From NCBI RefSeq assembly GCF_019599405.1, contig NZ_RKLQ01000002.1:944052-1008051 (forward strand): a stretch of 64,000 bases of DNA, written 5' to 3'. Source of the DNA: Haloarcula salinisoli. Lineage in GTDB: Archaea; Halobacteriota; Halobacteria; Halobacteriales; Haloarculaceae. A program made the translations under genes and the position numbers. The notes under the pieces were generated by a model that searched no databases, was not told the origin of the DNA, and worked only from the letters and a program-made list of their open reading frames with translations. Positions 3,487 to 54,896 of the stretch are shown here, piece by piece (position 1 is the first letter of the stretch; each line of letters starts with the position of its first letter).

Positions 3487-3597
3487 GGGACTGAAAGGGG
3501 CGGCGGGGAGGACGAAGCACGGGGAAGCAAGCACGCGAGCGGAGCGAGCGCGCGCAGCGAGCCGCGCGAGTCGTCCCCGCCGGGGCTTTCTGGCTGT
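3487..3597 (-). ncRNA. Family A structured element, copy A1
   Basis: On the plus strand the element begins GGGACTGAAAGGGGC (3487-3501) and ends GGGGCTTTCTGGCTGT (3582-3597). The inner arms GGCGGGGAGGACGA and TCGTCCCCGCC pair with a 3-base bulge. The proposed RNA sense is the minus strand, starting ACAGCCAGAAAGCCCC. It lies just after the MscS stop. The upstream AT-rich box is weak for this copy. Its interior carries short GC-rich repeats of the type GAGCGGAGCGAGC. Confidence 0.6.
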
Positions 3598-5680: not shown

Positions 5681-5864
5681 GGGACTGAAAGGGGCGACTG
5701 GCTACACGAACCCCGACGAAGTCCTCGAAAGAGCGCACCGCGCTCTTTCGGGATGATGAAAATCGCCAGCGGCGATTTTCAGATCATAAGGACCGCAGGG
5801 AGCGGGAGCGACTGAGGACCGCAACGAGTCGCGGGAGTGTAGCCAGTCGGGGCTTTCTGGCTGT
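5681..5864 (-). ncRNA. Family A structured element, copy A2
   Basis: The plus strand starts GGGACTGAAAGGGGC (5681-5695) and ends GGGGCTTTCTGGCTGT (5849-5864). The arms CGACTGGCTACAC (5695-5707) and GTGTAGCCAGTCG (5837-5849) are perfectly complementary. The interior has nested hairpins: GAAAGAGCGC/GCGCTCTTTC (5727-5749) and GAAAATCGCC/GGCGATTTTC (5758-5780). The minus strand is the proposed RNA sense. A GGTTATG box at 5883-5889 lies about 22 bases upstream of the RNA start. Confidence 0.65.
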
Positions 5865-18477: not shown

Positions 18478-18795
18478 ACAGCCAGAAAGCCCCGGCTGTC
18501 ATCGGAAGCGAAGCTTCCGATTACCCGCGAGAGCTATGCTCTCGCCCTGGCTGAACTCGGGGGTGGTTCGAAAGACGGCGGAGCCGTCTTTCGTCATCAC
18601 GAGAGAGCTTCGCTCTCTCGAACGACCTCGCTGCGGTCCTTGTGATCTGAAAATCGCGAAGCGATTTTCATCATCCCGCGAGAGCTCCGCTCTCGCGAGG
18701 ACGTCGTCCGCCTTCGTTCAGCCAGCCGCCGGGAGATCAAAGGTCTCCCGAGCTCGCGGGCGGCTGTGCCGCCCGCGAACGCCCCTTTCAGTCCC
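18478..18795 (+). ncRNA. Family A structured element, copy A3 (long)
   Basis: It starts ACAGCCAGAAAGCCCC (18478-18493) and ends GCCCCTTTCAGTCCC (18781-18795). TGTTTAGTTA at 18451-18460 is centred about 23 bases upstream of the start. The terminal inner arms no longer match well. The interior is a chain of small hairpins, such as GACGGCGGAGCCGTC, GAGAGCTTCGCTCTC, AAAATCGCGAAGCGATTTT and GGGCGGCTGTGCCGCCC. Bases 18631-18677 repeat part of copy A2 in inverted orientation. Confidence 0.6.
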
Positions 18796-18826
18796 ACCCG
18801 TAGCAGGTTGGCCAGCCGGCATGGGT

Positions 18827-18840
18827 GGGGCTTTCTGGCT
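18827..18840 (-). repeat. Family A remnant end, copy A4
   Basis: GGGGCTTTCTGGCT is the conserved end of family A. The rest of the copy is missing, so GGGTGGG joins directly to GCTTTCTGG. The spacer ACCCGTAGCAGGTTGGCCA (18796-18814) matches the A6-A7 spacer at 53.5 kb. The right flank CTAAAGTAAACAC (18858-18870) also matches. This was probably a tail-to-tail pair with A3. Confidence 0.55.
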
Positions 18841-18923
18841 CTCAGTATCAGTCACTGCTAAAGTAAACACTGCCGCACGCCGGAAGTGGAACGCTTACCC
18901 CGCTGGCCCACAGACTGACCGAT

Positions 18924-24338: not shown

Positions 24339-24353
24339 GGTCTGTGCGGCGTG

Positions 24354-24388
24354 CTGTAAAGCACGCTTTACAGTAAAGTAAACTTTAC
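24354..24388. promoter_or_regulatory. Tandem palindromic operator pair
   Basis: CTGTAAAGC-AC-GCTTTACAG (24354-24373) and GTAAAGT-AA-ACTTTAC (24373-24388) share the half-site GTAAAG. Their centres are 17 bases apart. They lie between the minus-strand TATA-like box (near 24396-24402) and ATG 24338, overlapping the expected transcription start. This is a classic repressor position. Confidence 0.6.
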
Positions 24389-24464
24389 ACACCTACATAA
24401 ATCTTGTCCACAGTCCCAGGACACGGTACCGTTGCCCGGACTCCCACCACGGAACGCGACCCTC

Positions 24465-25832
24465 TCAGTCGCTGAGAGACATCGTTCTCAGCACCTTCCG
24501 CTCGAACTCCTCGCGCGAGAGCGTGCCGTCCTCGAACTGGTCCAGCCACTCCCTGCAGATATGCCACGTGGCAACCGGCTGGCTTCCGTCGGTGACCGTC
24601 GCTTCCAGCCGCTGGGTCCCGATATCTTCGGCATCGGCCGACGCGTACCGTCGTGCGATTTCCCGTATCTCGTCGCCGATGGCTTTGTTGCTCGTCCTCG
24701 TGGTCGCGTAGGTGAGTGTGGCCTCGCTCTCGCCATGCTGGGCGTCGATTACGTCGATATCCGGCCCGCCGGGCTCATCGTTCGAGGCCGACAGCCCACT
24801 GTCGGTGGGCCGCGCGGTCGTCTCGGGTTCCGCCTCTGTCCGCTCAGTCCCGCTGTCGGTACTGACACGCCGCCGAGCCGTCACCACCCCGACGCCGACA
24901 CCGAGCACCAATAGCGCCCCGATCCCCACCCCGATGGCGGTGTTCCCACCGTTCGACACCGCCCCATCGGTCTCCGTCTCGGATTCGGGCTCCCCGCCCA
25001 CCGCTGACCCGCCGGCCGTCTCGGTCACGGGTTCGCGTTCCGTAGTCGGTTCTTCCGTGGCGGTCGCCTCGCCTCCCGCGCTGGCGGTGTCGTCGTCCGA
25101 CCCGCCGGTGGAGCTGTCGTCGTCCGACCCGCCGGTGGAGCTGTCGTCGTCCGACCCGCCGGTGGAACTGCCGTCGTCCGACCCGCCGGTGGAGCTGTCG
25201 TCGGCCGACCCGCCGGTGGAACTGCCGTCGTCCGACCCGCCGGTGGAACTGCCGTCGTCCGACCCGCCGGTGGAACTGTCGTCGTCCGACCCGCCGGTGG
25301 AACTGCCGTCGTCCGACCCGCCGGTGGAACTGTCGTCGTCCGACCCGCCGGTGGAACTGTCGTCGTCCGACCCGCCGGTGGAGCTGTCGTCGTCCGACCC
25401 GCCACCTTCGGAGCTATCCTGCTCTACGGTCACGTTTTTGACCGTGACAACTTCCTTGCCGCCGCGATCGATAGTTCTCGACACGAACGAGACATTCCCA
25501 GCGTCCGTGTCGGCCGGCACCGAGAAGGTCAGCGACGGCTCTTTCGTGGCCCCCGGCTCGACCGACCTGTAGACCCATCTGCTCTCGGACTGCCGCCAGC
25601 TCCCGTCATCGGTCCGGTCGACGATCTCCCACGTTTCGGGTACCGAGGCGTTTAGCACGTAGCTCGTCTCGTTCTCTCTGGTGTTGGTCAGACTGAACGT
25701 GTACGTCACCGTGTCGCCGGGTGCAACCTGGTCCGGGCCGGTTATCGAGGTGTTCGCGGGTTCCGCTAGCGCCGGCGTCGCGAGTACCGCGACGGCTACC
25801 ACGACAGCGACACCGAGCAAGGTGCGGTTCAT
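24465..25832 (-). CDS. Membrane-anchored surface protein with 9-residue repeat stalk (paralogue 1)
   Basis: The 455-residue product has a signal peptide (MNRTLLGVAVVVAVAVLATP). An Ig-like, DUF11/NEW3-type domain follows (about 28-135, with APGDTVTYTFSLTN). The stalk has about eleven copies of SDD(D/G)SSTGG (146-253), then a Pro/Glu linker. One membrane helix lies at 298-317 with RRR after it. The cytoplasmic domain (about 355-455) ends FEDGTLSREEFERKVL. Several N-x-S/T sequons lie in the Ig-like domain. It overlaps the 79-codon gene by 4 bases. The same architecture recurs at 26946-28535. Confidence 0.75.
   Translation of the reverse strand: MNRTLLGVAVVVAVAVLATPALAEPANTSITGPDQVAPGDTVTYTFSLTNTRENETSYVLNASVPETWEIVDRTDDGSWRQSESRWVYRSVEPGATKEPSLTFSVPADTDAGNVSFVSRTIDRGGKEVVTVKNVTVEQDSSEGGGSDDDSSTGGSDDDSSTGGSDDDSSTGGSDDGSSTGGSDDDSSTGGSDDGSSTGGSDDGSSTGGSADDSSTGGSDDGSSTGGSDDDSSTGGSDDDSSTGGSDDDTASAGGEATATEEPTTEREPVTETAGGSAVGGEPESETETDGAVSNGGNTAIGVGIGALLVLGVGVGVVTARRRVSTDSGTERTEAEPETTARPTDSGLSASNDEPGGPDIDVIDAQHGESEATLTYATTRTSNKAIGDEIREIARRYASADAEDIGTQRLEATVTDGSQPVATWHICREWLDQFEDGTLSREEFERKVLRTMSLSD
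25090..25400. repeat. 27-bp tandem repeat encoding SDDDSSTGG units
   Basis: About eleven imperfect 27-base units (GTCGTCGTCCGACCCGCCGG type on the plus strand) encode the stalk of the surface protein. Differences among units are mostly at one or two positions, which suggests recent expansion or gene conversion. Unit number could vary between strains. Confidence 0.85.
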
Positions 25833-26790: not shown

Positions 26791-26795
26791 GGCCG

Positions 26796-26890
26796 CGGCG
26801 TGCTGTAACGCACGCCTTAGGGTAAAGCACACCTCACATACCCACTTGATTCTTGCCGACAGTCTCGCAGGCTACCGAGCTCGCTTTGGC
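26796..26890. promoter_or_regulatory. Decayed copy of the 24.35-kb operator region
   Basis: GCGGCGTGCTGTAACGCACGCCTTAGGGTAA-type sequence (26799-26840) aligns with GCGGCGTGCTGTAAAGCACG at 24346-24365 and onward. Both palindromes have been broken by substitutions. It lies downstream of the second anchor gene, in the same relative place as the first operator. Confidence 0.55.
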
Positions 26891-26945: not shown

Positions 26946-28535
26946 TCAGCTACTGAAGCTGAGTGTCGCCACGGCCCGCCGTTCGAACGCCTCAGCGGAC
27001 AGCTCCCCGTCTTTGAACTGCTCCATCCACTCGCTACGAATCTCCCACGTCGCCACCGTCAGGTCCCCGTCGACGATTGTCGCCTCCAGGCGCTGCGTTC
27101 GGACATCGTCGTTGTCGGCCGAGGCGTAGCCGCGTGCGACCTCCCTGACTTCGTCACCGAGCTCTTTGTTGCCTATCTTCTCCGTCGAATAGGTGAGAGT
27201 GCACTTGTCGGGGGCCGCGTGGAAGCTGTGTACTTCGATGTCTGCCTCGCCGTAGCCGTCGCCGGTGTCGGGACTCCCGGTCGTTCCGGACTCAGTCTGT
27301 GAACCACCGCTGACGATCTCGGCAATCGACCCCTCGATAATCGGCTCTTCGGTCACGTTCCGTCGGACGGTTATCATCCCGACGCCGACGGCGAGTAGTA
27401 ACAGTGCGCTGAGACCGACCCCGACGGCGGTGTTCGAATCGTTCTCGGTGTCCGACGCTCCCGATCCGTCGTCGGTCTCGGTGTCCGCGTCGTCTGTTGC
27501 GGGCTCGTCGGGTTCGGACGCCGGTCCGCCAGCCGTCTCGGTCGGTTCACTCGCGGTCGTTTCGTCCGACTCCTCCGCTGTCGTGTTCGACTCGGCGTCA
27601 GTAGTGTTCGACTCGGCGTCGGTGCTACTGTTTTCCGGCGCACTGCTCGTATTGCCGTCCTCGCCGGAGGGGGTATCAGTCTCGCCGCTGTCGCTGGTGT
27701 CGTCGTCGCCGGTGTCGTCGCTACTGCTGTCGCCACTATCGCCACCGCCGCTGTAGTCGTCGCCACCGTCGCTACCATCGCCACCGTCGCTACCATCGCC
27801 ACCGTCGTCACCATCGCTGCCGTCGCCACCGTCACTACCGTCGTCACCATCGCCACCGTCACTACCGTCGTCACCATCGCCACCGTCACTACCGTCGTCA
27901 CCATCGCCACCGTCGTCACCATCGCTGCCGTCGCCACCGTCACTACCGTCGTCACCATCGCTGCCGTCGCCACCGTCACTACCGTCGTCACCATCGCCAC
28001 CGTCACTACCGTCGTCACCATCGCCACCGTCACTACCGTCGTCACCATCGCCACCGTCACTACCGTCGTCACCATCGCTGCCGTCGTCGCTCCCGCTGTC
28101 ACCGCTATCGCCACCGTCGGTCTCGACGGTCACCGTCTCGGTTGCGCTGTCCCGTACGCCCTTTTTATCCGAGGCAGTGGACGTTATTTCGACAGTCCCG
28201 TTCGCCGCGTTCTCCGGCACTGAGACCGTGAGTGTGGGTTCTCGGGTTTCCCCAGGCTCGGTCGACAGGAAGAGCCACTCGGTGTCCGAGTCCTGCCAGT
28301 ACCCACCGTTGTCGGTCCGGTCGACTATCTCCCAGCCGTCGGGCAGGGTCGCGTTCAGCGTGTAGGCGCTATCGTTTTCGCCGGTGTTGGTCAGCGTGAA
28401 CGTGTACGTGACGTTCTCACCGGGCTGGGCCTGTGAGGGTCCGTCTACCGACGTCGTCGCCGGGTCGGCTATCGCCGGTGCCGCAAGCACCGCGAGGAGA
28501 GCGACGACGGCGACACCGAGCAGGGTGCGGTTCAC
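26946..28535 (-). CDS. Membrane-anchored surface protein with Asp/Gly/Ser stalk (paralogue 2)
   Basis: The 529-residue product has a signal peptide (MNRTLLGVAVVALLAVLAAP). An Ig-like domain (about 28-138, QPGENVTYTFTLTNTGEN) and a stalk of GDGSDGDDG-type repeats (about 140-265) follow. Next is a Ser/Thr/Glu linker with several N-x-T sequons. One helix lies at 368-391 with RR after it. The cytoplasmic domain (about 430-529) resembles paralogue 1 (ASADNDDVRTQRLEATIVDG, FKDGELSAEAFERR). It overlaps the large upstream gene by 4 bases. The N- and C-terminal domains are conserved while the stalk is replaced, so the stalk acts as a spacer. Confidence 0.75.
   Translation of the reverse strand: MNRTLLGVAVVALLAVLAAPAIADPATTSVDGPSQAQPGENVTYTFTLTNTGENDSAYTLNATLPDGWEIVDRTDNGGYWQDSDTEWLFLSTEPGETREPTLTVSVPENAANGTVEITSTASDKKGVRDSATETVTVETDGGDSGDSGSDDGSDGDDGSDGGDGDDGSDGGDGDDGSDGGDGDDGSDGGDGSDGDDGSDGGDGSDGDDGGDGDDGSDGGDGDDGSDGGDGDDGSDGGDGSDGDDGGDGSDGGDGSDGGDDYSGGGDSGDSSSDDTGDDDTSDSGETDTPSGEDGNTSSAPENSSTDAESNTTDAESNTTAEESDETTASEPTETAGGPASEPDEPATDDADTETDDGSGASDTENDSNTAVGVGLSALLLLAVGVGMITVRRNVTEEPIIEGSIAEIVSGGSQTESGTTGSPDTGDGYGEADIEVHSFHAAPDKCTLTYSTEKIGNKELGDEVREVARGYASADNDDVRTQRLEATIVDGDLTVATWEIRSEWMEQFKDGELSAEAFERRAVATLSFSS
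27750..28095. repeat. Tandem repeat encoding the Asp/Gly/Ser stalk
   Basis: Short units (CACCGTCACTACCGTCGTCA and CCATCGCCACCGTC types) of 9-18 bases repeat about twenty times. They encode GDGSDGDDGSDGG-like sequence. The pattern is different from the 27-bp repeat in paralogue 1, so the two stalks expanded independently. Confidence 0.8.
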
Positions 28536-48534: not shown

Positions 48535-48590
48535 ACAGCCAGAAAGCCCCGACTGGCTCTCGTTACTAGTCCCTTCGGTCACTGATACTG
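48535..48590 (+). repeat. Family A partial element, copy A5
   Basis: ACAGCCAGAAAGCCCC (48535-48550) is followed by GACTGGCTCTCG and a degenerate hairpin near 48570. The GCCCCTTTCAG end is missing. A T-rich box (48508-48519) is centred about 22 bases upstream. It lies between convergent genes. Confidence 0.55.
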
Positions 48591-51368: not shown

Positions 51369-52375
51369 ACTATCGCCTCCAACAGCTCCTCTGGAATCTC
51401 GCCCCTGACCGGGTCGGTCGCGGGCGCGTCGATGGCCTCGCCGTAGGCGGCGACGGCGTCGGCGGCCGCGTCGTCACCGAGTCCTCGGGTGTTCAGGGCG
51501 CCGGCGACGACCGAGGCATCCGATACCGGGGCGGCCACCCGCTCGTAGAGGTCGGCGTACTCGGCCGGCGAGGGCAGTTCGAACGACTCGTAGCCGTGGA
51601 CCCGCTCGCGGCCGACCTCGTGGCACATGACCAGGGCGTCCGGCGCCGACCCGTGGAGGATACTCGTCGTCACACCGGAGTACGCTGGGTGGCCGAGCGC
51701 GCCCTGGCCCTCCACCACGACGAGGTCCATCCCCACCGGTGTCTCGACGAGCCGTTCGACCGCGCCGGCGGCGTAGTCCGAGACGACGCGGTCGACGACG
51801 ATGCCCCACCCCTCGATGACGACGCCGGTCTGTCCCGTCGGCACGACGACGGCGTCGAGGCCCCGCTCGCGGGCCGCGTCCCGGAGTTCGTAGGCCGTGG
51901 TCATCTTCCCCGTCGAGCAGTCGGTGCCGACGGTGGTGACGACGGTCGCCTCGACCTCGCCCGCACTGGCGTCGGCCACCGTGAGGTTCTCGGGTGGTTT
52001 CCGCACGTCGACGAGCTTCCCGCCGTATTCGGCGGCCAGTTCGGCGAACTCCTCGTCGTCGGTGAGAAAGTAGTGCAGTCCCGAGAGGACGTTACAGCCC
52101 CGCTCTAGGGCCGCTCGAACGTCGGGCCGCCATGACTCCTCGAAGCTACCGCCGATGGGCGCGACGCCGATTACGAGGGCGTCTATCTCGGGAACCTCGT
52201 CCATCGACCCGACGATTGGGGCGTCCTGGACGTCCGGCAGATGGTCGGCGACCCGTCCACCGGCTCGCTCGCGGTCCAGCACGGCCCGCACCTCGTGGTC
52301 ACCGTAGCGCAACAGCCCCACCGCTGTCTTGGCGCGGTCGGGAAACGAATCGTGGGCGAGGACGGCGACCTGCAT
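51365..52375 (-). CDS. DUF1611 protein, DgcN-like N-acyltransferase
   Basis: This 336-residue protein has a Rossmann-like N-terminus (MQVAVLAHDSFPDRAKTAVG) and a P-loop-type part, VVTTVGTDCSTGKMTTAYEL, near residue 140. QTGVVIEGWG and VVVEGQGALGHPAYSGVTT follow. DUF1611 includes DgcN, an N-acetyltransferase acting on D-glutamate. The start at 52375 is chosen over an upstream Cys-rich extension. It is the first gene of a two-gene operon with the epimerase. Confidence 0.8.
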   Translation of the reverse strand: MQVAVLAHDSFPDRAKTAVGLLRYGDHEVRAVLDRERAGGRVADHLPDVQDAPIVGSMDEVPEIDALVIGVAPIGGSFEESWRPDVRAALERGCNVLSGLHYFLTDDEEFAELAAEYGGKLVDVRKPPENLTVADASAGEVEATVVTTVGTDCSTGKMTTAYELRDAARERGLDAVVVPTGQTGVVIEGWGIVVDRVVSDYAAGAVERLVETPVGMDLVVVEGQGALGHPAYSGVTTSILHGSAPDALVMCHEVGRERVHGYESFELPSPAEYADLYERVAAPVSDASVVAGALNTRGLGDDAAADAVAAYGEAIDAPATDPVRGEIPEELLEAIV

Positions 52376-52412
52376 ACGTGGAGGGTCGCCGGGACAGTGC
52401 CTAAAGCTAGGG

Positions 52413-53309
52413 TTACGGGACGACCAGCCGCACGGTCCACAGCGACCGCACCGCATCGGCAAGCGCGTCTTCGGGGTCGCCGGTGGCGTCGACCGCCCTC
52501 GTCACCGCGGCCCGCTCGTCGAACTCGTGGATGACCGACCCCTCGCCGACGACGTAGAGGGTCTCGGGGTCGACCTCGTCGATGGCCGCGCGACAGCGCT
52601 CGACGTGGTTCTCTATCTGCTGGTCGCGCAGGCGCTCGAATCGGGACTGGGAGAACCCGCCCTTGGAGTGTTGGCTCTTCAGCTCGGAGTCGAAGCCGTG
52701 GAACGCCGTCCGCTCCCGACCGTCGTACTCGCCGAGTGCGAACAGGTCAGAACGAACGAGCGCGACGGTGTGGGCACCGACCGGTTCGAACCACGAGCGC
52801 TCGAACTGGACGCCGTCGTCCCACCCGGCGAACGGTTCGGGTGGAACGGGGACCGAGAGACACGCGGACAGCAGGCCCGCGTCGTCGGTGACCGCGAGAC
52901 ACGGCGCGGTGCCGGCCACGGTCTCGCTGCGGTCGCCAAAGGCATCCCTGACTGCGTCGGGCACGTCGTGCTCACCGGCGACGTAGGCGGTAAAGACGCC
53001 TTCCGGCTCTGTCTCGAAGGCGGCCAGCCGGTCGAGTATCTCACCGACGCGGTGGCCGTGGAGACGTTCGGCAGTACTGTCACCGCTGGCGCTGCCGTCG
53101 CCCGACTGCAGGCGCTCGACGCGGTCCTCGAGTTCGGCGACGCGGTCCTCCAGTCGGTTCTCCCGCTCTTCGGCCCGCTGGCGAGCCGTCGTCGCCTCGG
53201 CGCGCCGGTCCTCCTCCGCGTCGAGTTGCCGTTCGAGGTGGCGCTTTTCCTCTTCGAGCTCGGCGACGCGCTCTTTCAGGGACGCCCGTCCCAGCAACCG
53301 GTCCAGCAT
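52413..53309 (-). CDS. Vms1/eRF1-like peptidyl-tRNA hydrolase domain protein
   Basis: This 298-residue protein starts with a coiled coil (about 10-70), then an eRF1-like VLRF domain. SELKSQHSKGGFSQSRFERL carries the Gln expected in the Vms1 active loop (GGxSQ). Vms1/ANKZF1 releases chains from stalled ribosome complexes in eukaryotes. Archaeal relatives are proposed to do the same. The length and end (LWTVRLVVP) look complete. Confidence 0.75.
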   Translation of the reverse strand: MLDRLLGRASLKERVAELEEEKRHLERQLDAEEDRRAEATTARQRAEERENRLEDRVAELEDRVERLQSGDGSASGDSTAERLHGHRVGEILDRLAAFETEPEGVFTAYVAGEHDVPDAVRDAFGDRSETVAGTAPCLAVTDDAGLLSACLSVPVPPEPFAGWDDGVQFERSWFEPVGAHTVALVRSDLFALGEYDGRERTAFHGFDSELKSQHSKGGFSQSRFERLRDQQIENHVERCRAAIDEVDPETLYVVGEGSVIHEFDERAAVTRAVDATGDPEDALADAVRSLWTVRLVVP

Positions 53310-53392
53310 TGGCTGTACTGCATCCGGCGACCGGCTTAAAAGTGCCTGCCCGTGCCGACCAGTCGTATTAACTTAGGCGAGTTGGACTGCAA

Positions 53393-53493
53393 ACAGCCAG
53401 AAAGCCCCCGCGTTCTCGACTCGCGCGGCTCGCTGCGCTCCGGTAGGTGCTTGCTTCGCCGGGCTTCGTCGAGAACGCGGCCCCTTTCAGTCC
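53393..53493 (+). ncRNA. Family A structured element, copy A6
   Basis: It starts ACAGCCAGAAAGCCCC (53393-53408) and ends CCCCTTTCAGTCCC (53480-53493). The arms CCGCGTTCTCGAC (53408-53420) and GTCGAGAACGCGG (53468-53480) are perfectly complementary. TATTAACTTA (53366-53375) is centred about 23 bases upstream of the start. Confidence 0.7.
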
Positions 53494-53525
53494 CACCCGT
53501 AGCCGGTTGGCCAATCAGCGTGGGT

Positions 53526-53637
53526 GGGACTGAAAGGGGCGGCTGGCTCCGGGAAGGCGGGCGACGTAAGCACCGCAGGCCGAAGGCCGAGGAGCGCAAC
53601 GAGCCCCCCGACCGGAGCCAGCCGGGGCTTTCTGGCT
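53526..53637 (-). ncRNA. Family A structured element, copy A7
   Basis: On the plus strand it runs from GGGACTGAAAGGGGC (53526-53540) to GGGGCTTTCTGGCT (53624-53637). The arms GGCTGGCTCCGG (53541-53552) and CCGGAGCCAGCC (53612-53623) are perfect. TAAACTAAAC (53656-53665) is centred about 24 bases from the RNA start on the minus strand. Tail-to-tail with A6 across a 32-base spacer that itself begins ACCC and ends GGGT. Confidence 0.7.
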
Positions 53638-53686
53638 CTCTGAGAGGGTAGCTGCTAAACTAAACACCGCTTCTCGACCCGACGGG

Positions 53687-54046
53687 CTACACTGCGCTGT
53701 CGGGCACGACGTCGCTCGTGTCCGCGACGGACAGCAGCTGGGCCGCGTGGTCGGCCTTCGCGAGGAACACCTCGCTCAGACTCGGCGGGTTCCGGATGTC
53801 CGCGTCCGCGAGTACTTCCTCCGGGACCGCGAGCGTGTCCGCCGGGACCTCCTCGTCGCCCCGGACGGGGAAGTGACGCCGGCCGAGTTTCATCACCAGC
53901 GGCAGGTCTGTCCGTGTTACGCCCTCGTCGCCGTACAGCTGTCGATTCACTCGCTCGTGCTGGTCACGACACATCGCGGCCCCGCCCTCGCGTGGTTCGA
54001 CGTAGAGCCGGCCGAGGTAGTAGCCGCGTGAAAACTGTTCGAACAT
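53687..54046 (-). CDS. Conserved haloarchaeal protein (DUF5802-like)
   Basis: This 119-residue protein starts MFEQFSRGYYLGRLYVEPRE, a start typical of a small haloarchaeal family that I take as DUF5802. It has a PVRGDEEVPADTLAVPEEVL middle and a final helix. No known function. The TATA box at 54073-54080 on the other strand supports ATG 54046 as a leaderless start. The nine extra codons upstream are not used. Confidence 0.65.
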   Translation of the reverse strand: MFEQFSRGYYLGRLYVEPREGGAAMCRDQHERVNRQLYGDEGVTRTDLPLVMKLGRRHFPVRGDEEVPADTLAVPEEVLADADIRNPPSLSEVFLAKADHAAQLLSVADTSDVVPDSAV

Positions 54047-54072
54047 CGGTACGCGTGAACGATGCACACACA

Positions 54073-54080
54073 TATATAAA
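54073..54080 (-). promoter_or_regulatory. TATA box of the 53687-54046 gene
   Basis: TTTATATA on the minus strand lies about 30 bases upstream of ATG 54046 and predicts a leaderless message. Confidence 0.55.
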
Positions 54081-54260
54081 AGCCTTCGCCGAAATCCTCT
54101 TGTCGTCGGGCTATTCTACCACACGCAGTTGTTCGATACGCTGTCACCAGTGCGGTTGCCTGGCGTGGCGCCGGCTGTTCTCGAATACCGGTGAGACGAT
54201 CACACCACGAGGTGGGACTCGTACCGACAGGGTTTCACACCGCCGTCCTGCATCCTCTGT

Positions 54261-54896
54261 ATGGAGAGTCGGGGGCCGCTCCCACGGCGGTACGCGCGGT
54301 ACTACCTGGAGAACGCGCCGAGTCTGGTGTGGCTGGTCGTCGTCAACAGCGTGGCTATCCTCGTGGGCGTTCGGTACTACGTCGAGACGATGCCGGGCGT
54401 CTCGACCTTTCTCTGGCCGCTGTACGCCGATTCGCCGACGGCTCTGTTCCTGATGACGCTGTCGCTGGTGACGCTGTGGCCGTTCCTGGGTGACTCGCTG
54501 GAGGACGTGCCGGTAAACCGGCCGCTGGCCTACCTCCACACTATCGCGCTGGTGTGGCTGCTGAAGATGGGTATCTGGACGGTCGTCGCGCTGAACCTCG
54601 GTTTTACCGTCTACTTCCCCGCGCTGTGGGCGTACTTCGGTATCATCGTCACCCACGTGGGCTTCATCGCAGAGGGGGCGCTGGTCCCCCATTACGCACG
54701 GACGACCCGCGGAGCGCTGGCGACGGCGCTGGTCCTGGCGCTGGCGAACGACCTCTTAGACTACGGCTTTGGTTACTATCCGCCGCTGCGATACGAGCCC
54801 GGGCCGGCCCTCGTCGTCGCCACCGTGGCCCTGTCGGTGGGGTCGGTGGCAGTGGCGGCCCGATGGCTGCCGAGGCTAGAGGAGAGCGGTGAATAA
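54261..54896 (+). CDS. DUF1405 membrane protein
   Basis: This 211-residue protein has six predicted helices and matches DUF1405: YYLENAPSLVWLVVVNSVAI near the start, FLWPLYADSPTALFLMTLSL and IVTHVGFIAEGALVPHYA. The family occurs in Bacillus and haloarchaea with no known role. ATG 54261 starts MESRGPLPRRYARYY. No partner gene is visible. Open frames on the other strand here are shadows. Confidence 0.8.
   Translation: MESRGPLPRRYARYYLENAPSLVWLVVVNSVAILVGVRYYVETMPGVSTFLWPLYADSPTALFLMTLSLVTLWPFLGDSLEDVPVNRPLAYLHTIALVWLLKMGIWTVVALNLGFTVYFPALWAYFGIIVTHVGFIAEGALVPHYARTTRGALATALVLALANDLLDYGFGYYPPLRYEPGPALVVATVALSVGSVAVAARWLPRLEESGE

Follow-up and report, generated by a model that had tools for sequence, protein, structure and literature searches.

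Paired hairpin elements dispersed between the genes of haloarchaea, with a conserved fold and hypervariable tails, are gained or lost as whole units

The paired element and its relatives in the window

The sequence analyzed (hereafter the window) is a 64,000 nt stretch of the genome of Haloarcula salinisoli (RefSeq assembly GCF_019599405.1, contig NZ_RKLQ01000002.1, positions 944,052 to 1,008,051), which belongs to a 4.03-Mb genome of 10 contigs designated here G000. It contains an inverted pair of half-elements, A6 (53494 to 53394, minus strand) and A7 (53526–53638, plus strand), that are recognized by covariance model R1 with 115 bits (E 2.6e-25) and 119 bits (E 4.1e-26), respectively. On the plus strand the order is T′-[half]-H′-spacer-H-[half]-T, where T′ is CAGCCAGAAAGCCCC, H′ is GCCCCTTTCAGTCCC, H is GGGACTGAAAGGGGC and T is GGGGCTTTCTGGCTG. 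The inverted H motifs flank the near-palindromic spacer ACCCGTAGCCGGTTGGCCAATCAGCGTGGGT and form a central hairpin (53480–53540), whereas the T motifs are situated at the outer ends, with an exact match to GGGGCTTTCTGGCTG on the left (53394–53408, minus strand) and, on the right, the sequence GGGGCTTTCTGGCTC, with one mismatch (53624–53638, plus strand). Beyond each T motif there is a tail, from 53366 to 53393 on the left (minus strand), with the terminal box GTATTAACTTAGG, and from 53639 to 53670 on the right (plus strand), with the terminal box CTGCTAAACTAAACACC; in both cases a CTAA is found at T+31.

The window contains other members of the family. A1 (3487–3596, plus strand; 95 bits with R1) and A2 (5681–5863, plus strand; 88 bits) are solo half-elements, the former lying in a stretch that does not align to the genome of Haloarcula rara SHR3 (designated G002), and A5 (48536–48550, minus strand) is a remnant consisting of an exact T motif without H. 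The A3 half (minus strand), enlarged by inserted hairpins, is joined to the A4 remnant in the region 18479–18841 by the spacer ACCCGTAGCAGGTTGGCCA..., which differs from that of A6/A7 by one change in the first 19 bases and is 88 % identical over 52. Half-elements enlarged by further perfect hairpins that recur in other copies (e.g., GAGAGAGCGAAGCTCTCTC and GAAAATCGCTTCGCGATTTTC) were seen in A3 (18479–18795) and in the comparison with G002 of L050 and L051 (loci outside the window are designated L and a number), as if small hairpins nest inside the family. The window also contains tandem repeats with 27-bp and 9-bp periods (24998–25483 and 27659–28100), which are probably repetitive protein-coding sequence, and a 70-bp direct repeat, 79 % identical (24346–24415 and 26795–26864; GCGGCGTGCTGTAA...), possibly a shared promoter region.

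The first-pass annotation described A6 and A7 as a tail-to-tail pair with its own flanks, sharing its spacer with A3/A4 and its outer boxes with other copies, and this observation was confirmed, since the spacers and the outer boxes CTGCTAAACTAAACACC, CTGCTAAAGTAAACAC and GGTGTTTAGTTA are all present. The repetition is not due to chance: the 15-mer GGGACTGAAAGGGGC occurs 5 times in the window against 0.16 expected, and GGGGCTTTCTGGCTG 7 times against 0.08, while in the whole genome the H motif has 100 hits with at most one mismatch against 2 for the reversed-pattern control. Nevertheless, three corrections are needed. First, the A4 remnant keeps only the T motif. Second, the outer box is not general because, by our reading of the flanks, only about 10 of about 105 carry it, at T+31, most flanks having a CTAG instead; a search of the whole genome for the box gave 14 hits against 6 in the control, about nine of them beside an element. 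Third, judged by the strand that shows G.U wobble (see below), the halves are head-to-head and not tail-to-tail.

Pairing is also the rule elsewhere in this genome: of about 63 sites with an H motif, 42 (counted by hand) have two inverted H motifs within about 110 bp, usually 46 bp apart start to start, and pairs recur in other genera. Variants of this arrangement were also seen. At L035 (1809–2335), as well as at L011, L013, L014, L015, L026, L030, L049 and L059, the T motif is repeated at exactly 45-bp spacing, with unlike interior sequence at most loci and near-identical copies in L035. A short variant half made of two small hairpins (GGGACTGAG-hairpin-CGAGGGTCA-hairpin-GGGACTTTCTGG) occurs in L014 and between the H motifs of the pair in L015, and L024 and L058 show the same enlarged H-H spacing.

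Conserved fold of the half-element and of the pair

Ninety-five half cores were extracted from the genome. Behind H there is a 12-base arm that, in most copies, is perfectly complementary to the 12 bases preceding T (stem P1), although the arm sequences differ widely: among halves with at least 8 of 12 matches there are 69 distinct arms in 90 halves of G000, 39 in 41 of G002 and 115 in 133 of other genera, so that the stem stays paired across about 220 different sequences. Inside P1 lie a second covarying helix, a conserved asymmetric internal loop (GACGYAAGCAC facing GCRCAGCGAG) and a hairpin of variable length. In an alignment of 57 halves with 30 pairs, 97.2 % of the pair cells are standard pairs and 390 cells show a change on both sides, against a mean of 124 in shuffles, whereas sliding one side by one column drops pairing to 38–46 %. 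Over all genera, G.U pairs in P1 on the H-to-T strand outnumber A.C mismatches 75 to 16 (9:5, 7:0, 59:11). Since A.C on this strand is what G.U on the other strand would look like, the strand whose fold matters runs from H to T, and the two halves of a pair therefore point away from each other.

Taken as one strand, the whole pair folds as a cloverleaf, with T′ pairing with T, H′ with H, and the two halves as side arms (−176.3 kcal/mol, z −9.65 as RNA; z −9.18 as DNA). The T′/T and H′/H pairing follows automatically from the inverted arrangement and is not separate evidence, as opposed to the compensated P1 stems.

Empty sites and genomic context

We searched 24 genomes of the same genus with positions 52300–54700 of the window. 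In G002 the matching blocks end at about 53360 and resume at about 53675, with 4 bp between them, and similar breaks were found in five other relatives (G008, G001, G022, G014 and G010). These results indicate that the block 53361–53674, that is, the pair with about 30–37 bp on each side, is gained or lost as one unit. The adjacent TATA-like sequence CTTAAAAG (near 53335–53345) and the neighboring gene end lie outside the insertion and are kept in the empty sites. The sequence CGACC occurs near both ends of the insertion, but no clean target-site duplication or exact ends could be read, because the gap between the genes in relatives is only about 10–25 bp and diverged. A further absent copy was found at L042, and whole-element differences were found at sites shared with G002.

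All 60 sites tested are intergenic, as judged with a simple gene finder of our own, and are nearer to stop codons (about 40–50 bp) than to start codons (about 80–120 bp). Convergent gene pairs were not preferred, with 10 convergent, 16 divergent and 34 tandem sites, close to the window baseline.

REARRANGEMENT

The A3/A4 copy coincides with a breakpoint of synteny with H. rara: between 18420 and 18875 of the window, synteny with G002 switches from contig position about 2,017,075 to about 2,123,882, and the copy in L045 (contig C2 of G000, about 833,080) shows the reciprocal switch. The two flanks meet within about 22 and 9 bases in G002, which thus has no element at either junction. This fits an inversion with copies at both ends in the G000 lineage.

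Hypervariable tails with a three-base register

Outside T the sequence is not conserved beyond a few bases, except that CTAG, a word that is rare in the rest of the sequence (28 in the window), is common. Its distance from the start of T is 1 mod 3 in 129 of 144 first occurrences pooled over G000, G002 and other genera, with peaks at 40, 58–61, 79 and 97. In this stretch every third base on the outward strand is mostly C or T, while the other two positions are much more even. About ten flanks, including those of the window pairs, have instead the box with CTAA at T+31. The peaks recur roughly every 19 bases, for which a RecA-like filament (about 18.6 nt per turn, 3 nt per subunit) would fit better than B-DNA, although this is speculation.

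At the sites compared with G002, the DNA outside the CTAG is mostly 93–99 % identical, but most tails are only a little more alike than shuffled sequence and the P1 stems differ at most sites. In the plainly different tails bounded by an in-register CTAG the length differences were multiples of three, whereas a few sides without such a CTAG gave differences of 1 or 2. Tails were conserved, as an exception, on both sides of L048 and on one side of L050. In a partial comparison limited to roughly 1.5 Mb of sequence, tails did not match each other or other sequence beyond the T motif, and no source for them was found.

Protein coding is poorly supported as an explanation for this register, because there are in-frame stops in 17 of 102 tails, no G+C bias at third positions and no start codon pattern, and because in the T motif the third codon positions are the conserved ones. 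Likewise, the halves do not appear to be open reading frames, since core lengths are not a fixed value mod 3.

Distribution of the family

A search with a covariance model identified the family, at E 1e-5 or better, in 117 of 145 genomes of the class, with from 0 to at least 25 matches per genome, the higher counts being lower bounds. Within the genus, counts of the exact H motif ranged from 0 to 74. A partial exact scan for the paired H motif returned only haloarchaeal records, among them Haloarcula, Haloterrigena, Natronococcus, Halonotius, Halohasta, Halorarius and Halovenus. The T motif varies by lineage after GGGGCTTTC. No match was found in phages or, for one exact pattern, in viral contigs, nor in Rfam 15 at gathering score, the best weak matches being miRNA hairpins far below cut-off. 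The motif strings were in no paper and searches on repeats and RNAs gave no description of this family in the open-access literature examined; one REP survey names no haloarchaeon in its main text (PMC12306157).

On haloarchaeal megaplasmids, single half-elements occur about 0.45–0.6 kb from the start of a gene for an OB-fold protein resembling replication factor A or SSB, facing away from it. In the non-Haloarcula-type plasmids, between the gene and the element there is a strongly conserved, G+C-rich non-coding stretch of 450 nt (L296, 3995–4663, and upstream of the OB-fold gene in L297–L301, L304, L305, L308 and L309), divergent from the gene, which looks like a large structured RNA but has no Rfam match. 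Two of these ten loci (L304 and L305) keep the stretch without a recognizable element. A Halobacterium relative of the OB-fold gene lies on pNRC200, and two bacterial-type SSB genes, rfa5 and rfa6, possibly including this gene, are described on the Halobacterium minichromosomes (PMC5924565). In G000, three diverged solo elements are situated within 6 kb of contig C5 (L060, positions 2001, 5099 and 8041), each near a divergently oriented gene, coding for an OB-fold, a coiled-coil and an HVO_A0114-type protein. Nevertheless, the OB-fold gene is present in 87 of 145 genomes and does not track the chromosomal family, because some genomes with 20 or more copies lack it; we therefore treat it as a lead, and not as an obligate partner.

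Search for a mobilizing enzyme

No transposase or recombinase that could mobilize the element was found, with Y1 transposases and reverse transcriptases examined as candidate partners. The single PF01797 (Y1 transposase) gene of the genome is a tnpA next to tnpB, forming an ordinary IS200/IS605 pair with no copy of the element in its 3.4-kb locus, and several element-rich genomes have no PF01797 match. Additionally, there was no RVT_1 reverse transcriptase match in this 99.97 % complete genome, although three control genomes did give matches. No transposon-sized pair that could represent an autonomous partner was recognized among the exact matches to the T motif and the matches to the box.

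Interpretation

We favor, with a probability of roughly 55 %, the reading that the pair is one copy of a non-autonomous, dispersed mobile element of haloarchaea, whose unit is an inverted, head-to-head pair of half-elements of about 100–120 nt plus a tail on each side. The analysis itself demonstrates the family, its predominant pairing, the conserved fold and its strand, the empty sites and hence gain or loss of the unit as a whole, the wide differences in copy number between related genomes, the intergenic placement, the tail rule and the turnover at shared sites. It is by inference only that we propose that a trans-acting enzyme recognizes the folded half on the H-to-T strand, as single-stranded DNA or as an RNA copy, together with the T motif, that it inserts the unit at a CTAG/CTAA-like site between genes and can replace an existing copy at such a site, and that copies also serve as homology for chromosomal inversions. 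Besides the lack of an identified enzyme and of a clean target-site duplication, this reading has to face that tails are not copied from site to site, which simple copy-and-paste would predict, and that single copies hold a conserved place near an OB-fold gene on megaplasmids, which looks like a resident function and not like a random insertion.

The interpretation in the first-pass annotation was only partly supported. Its proposal of a mobile paired unit is supported by the empty sites and by the prevalence of pairs. The claim that the duplicated unit includes promoters was not supported, because the flanks are hypervariable tails and the TATA-like sequence is outside the insertion. Its alternative of two convergent RNAs forming a duplex at their 3′ ends is very unlikely because, although transcripts from both sides of an inverted repeat would be complementary, this complementarity follows automatically from the repeat and the strand whose fold is conserved runs outward. 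Finally, it had anticipated that unrelated flanks among further copies would argue against it, and this turned out to be half true: flank sequences are unrelated, but flank lengths and ends obey a shared rule.

A tentative alternative is that of a family of structured non-coding RNAs, in which each half would be a transcript, or the 3′ domain of one, running from H to T, with the variable tail as its 3′ end, and acting with a protein, dispersal being a by-product. The asymmetry of wobble pairs, the conserved internal loop between covarying helices and the position of single halves at the far end of the conserved 450-nt stretch on megaplasmids agree with this view, which rests on sequence alone. 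However, no promoter was recognized, copy number differs widely between close relatives, and pairs put a sense and an antisense half on one strand. It is less likely that the elements are DNA structures kept for the host, such as a cruciform, a nucleoid or topology site, or a transcription terminator, like roles proposed for REP/BIME sequences: they are always intergenic in the sites tested, about 40–50 bp from stop codons and 80–120 bp from start codons, and a strong cloverleaf is predicted in either strand, but convergent gene pairs are not preferred and a symmetric DNA cruciform needs neither the wobble asymmetry nor a strand-specific loop. Lastly, that the tails are variable regions of a process like that of diversity-generating retroelements (AAY to NNY randomization) is very doubtful, in spite of their (NNY)n pattern, their turnover in multiples of three and the adjoining hairpin, in the absence of an RVT_1 match and because tails are not part of a gene.

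A more speculative possibility, which we consider unlikely although compatible with the data, is that the family is a new kind of mobile or RNA-guided system in which a folded half-element carries a hypervariable tail that is renewed at fixed genomic sites, written in three-base steps between the T motif and CTAG, and possibly laid down or measured by a protein that contacts nucleic acid in triplets. In this view, the tail would be a deliberately varied guide or spacer and not ordinary inherited DNA.

This repeat family, found in about four fifths of the sampled haloarchaeal genomes and with a very strong covariation signal inside a single genome, appears to be absent from Rfam and from the open literature searched. 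It provides a testable archaeal counterpart to REPINs without their transposase, marks apparent chromosomal inversion points, and has tails with a three-base length rule that ordinary coding does not explain. Identifying what renews the tails, or what reads the fold, would reveal a new recombination or RNA-based activity in genetically tractable organisms.

Comparison with known systems

Diversity-generating retroelements share with this family an NNY-type variability next to a hairpin, but here there is no RVT_1 match in the genome and the variability is not within a gene. Integron attC sites (PMC2727003) are also imperfect palindromes of variable sequence recognized as folded single strands, for which strand choice matters; no gene cassettes were seen associated with the elements described here. 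As occurs with MITEs, non-autonomous transposons with terminal inverted repeats, the unit of about 314 bp has inverted ends and empty sites in relatives, and about 10 flanks share the box GTGTTTASTTWRG. The T motifs are inverted and conserved but the outermost ends mostly are not conserved in sequence, no target duplication was shown, and no matching autonomous transposon was recognized among the exact T matches and the matches to the box.

In architecture the family resembles REPINs and BIMEs, the REP doublets of bacteria (PMC3116915), in which the inverted doublet is also the prevalent unit, intergenic and of high copy number, forming hairpins or a clover configuration, with compensatory changes in the stem and remnants as singlets. 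We do not classify the family as a REPIN, because the defining association with a Y1 (RAYT) transposase was not found. Additionally, the family is haloarchaeal, its halves are of 100–120 nt with internal loops instead of the 20–40 bp of REPs, and it shows variable tails ending at CTAG in a three-base register and turnover of content at fixed sites.
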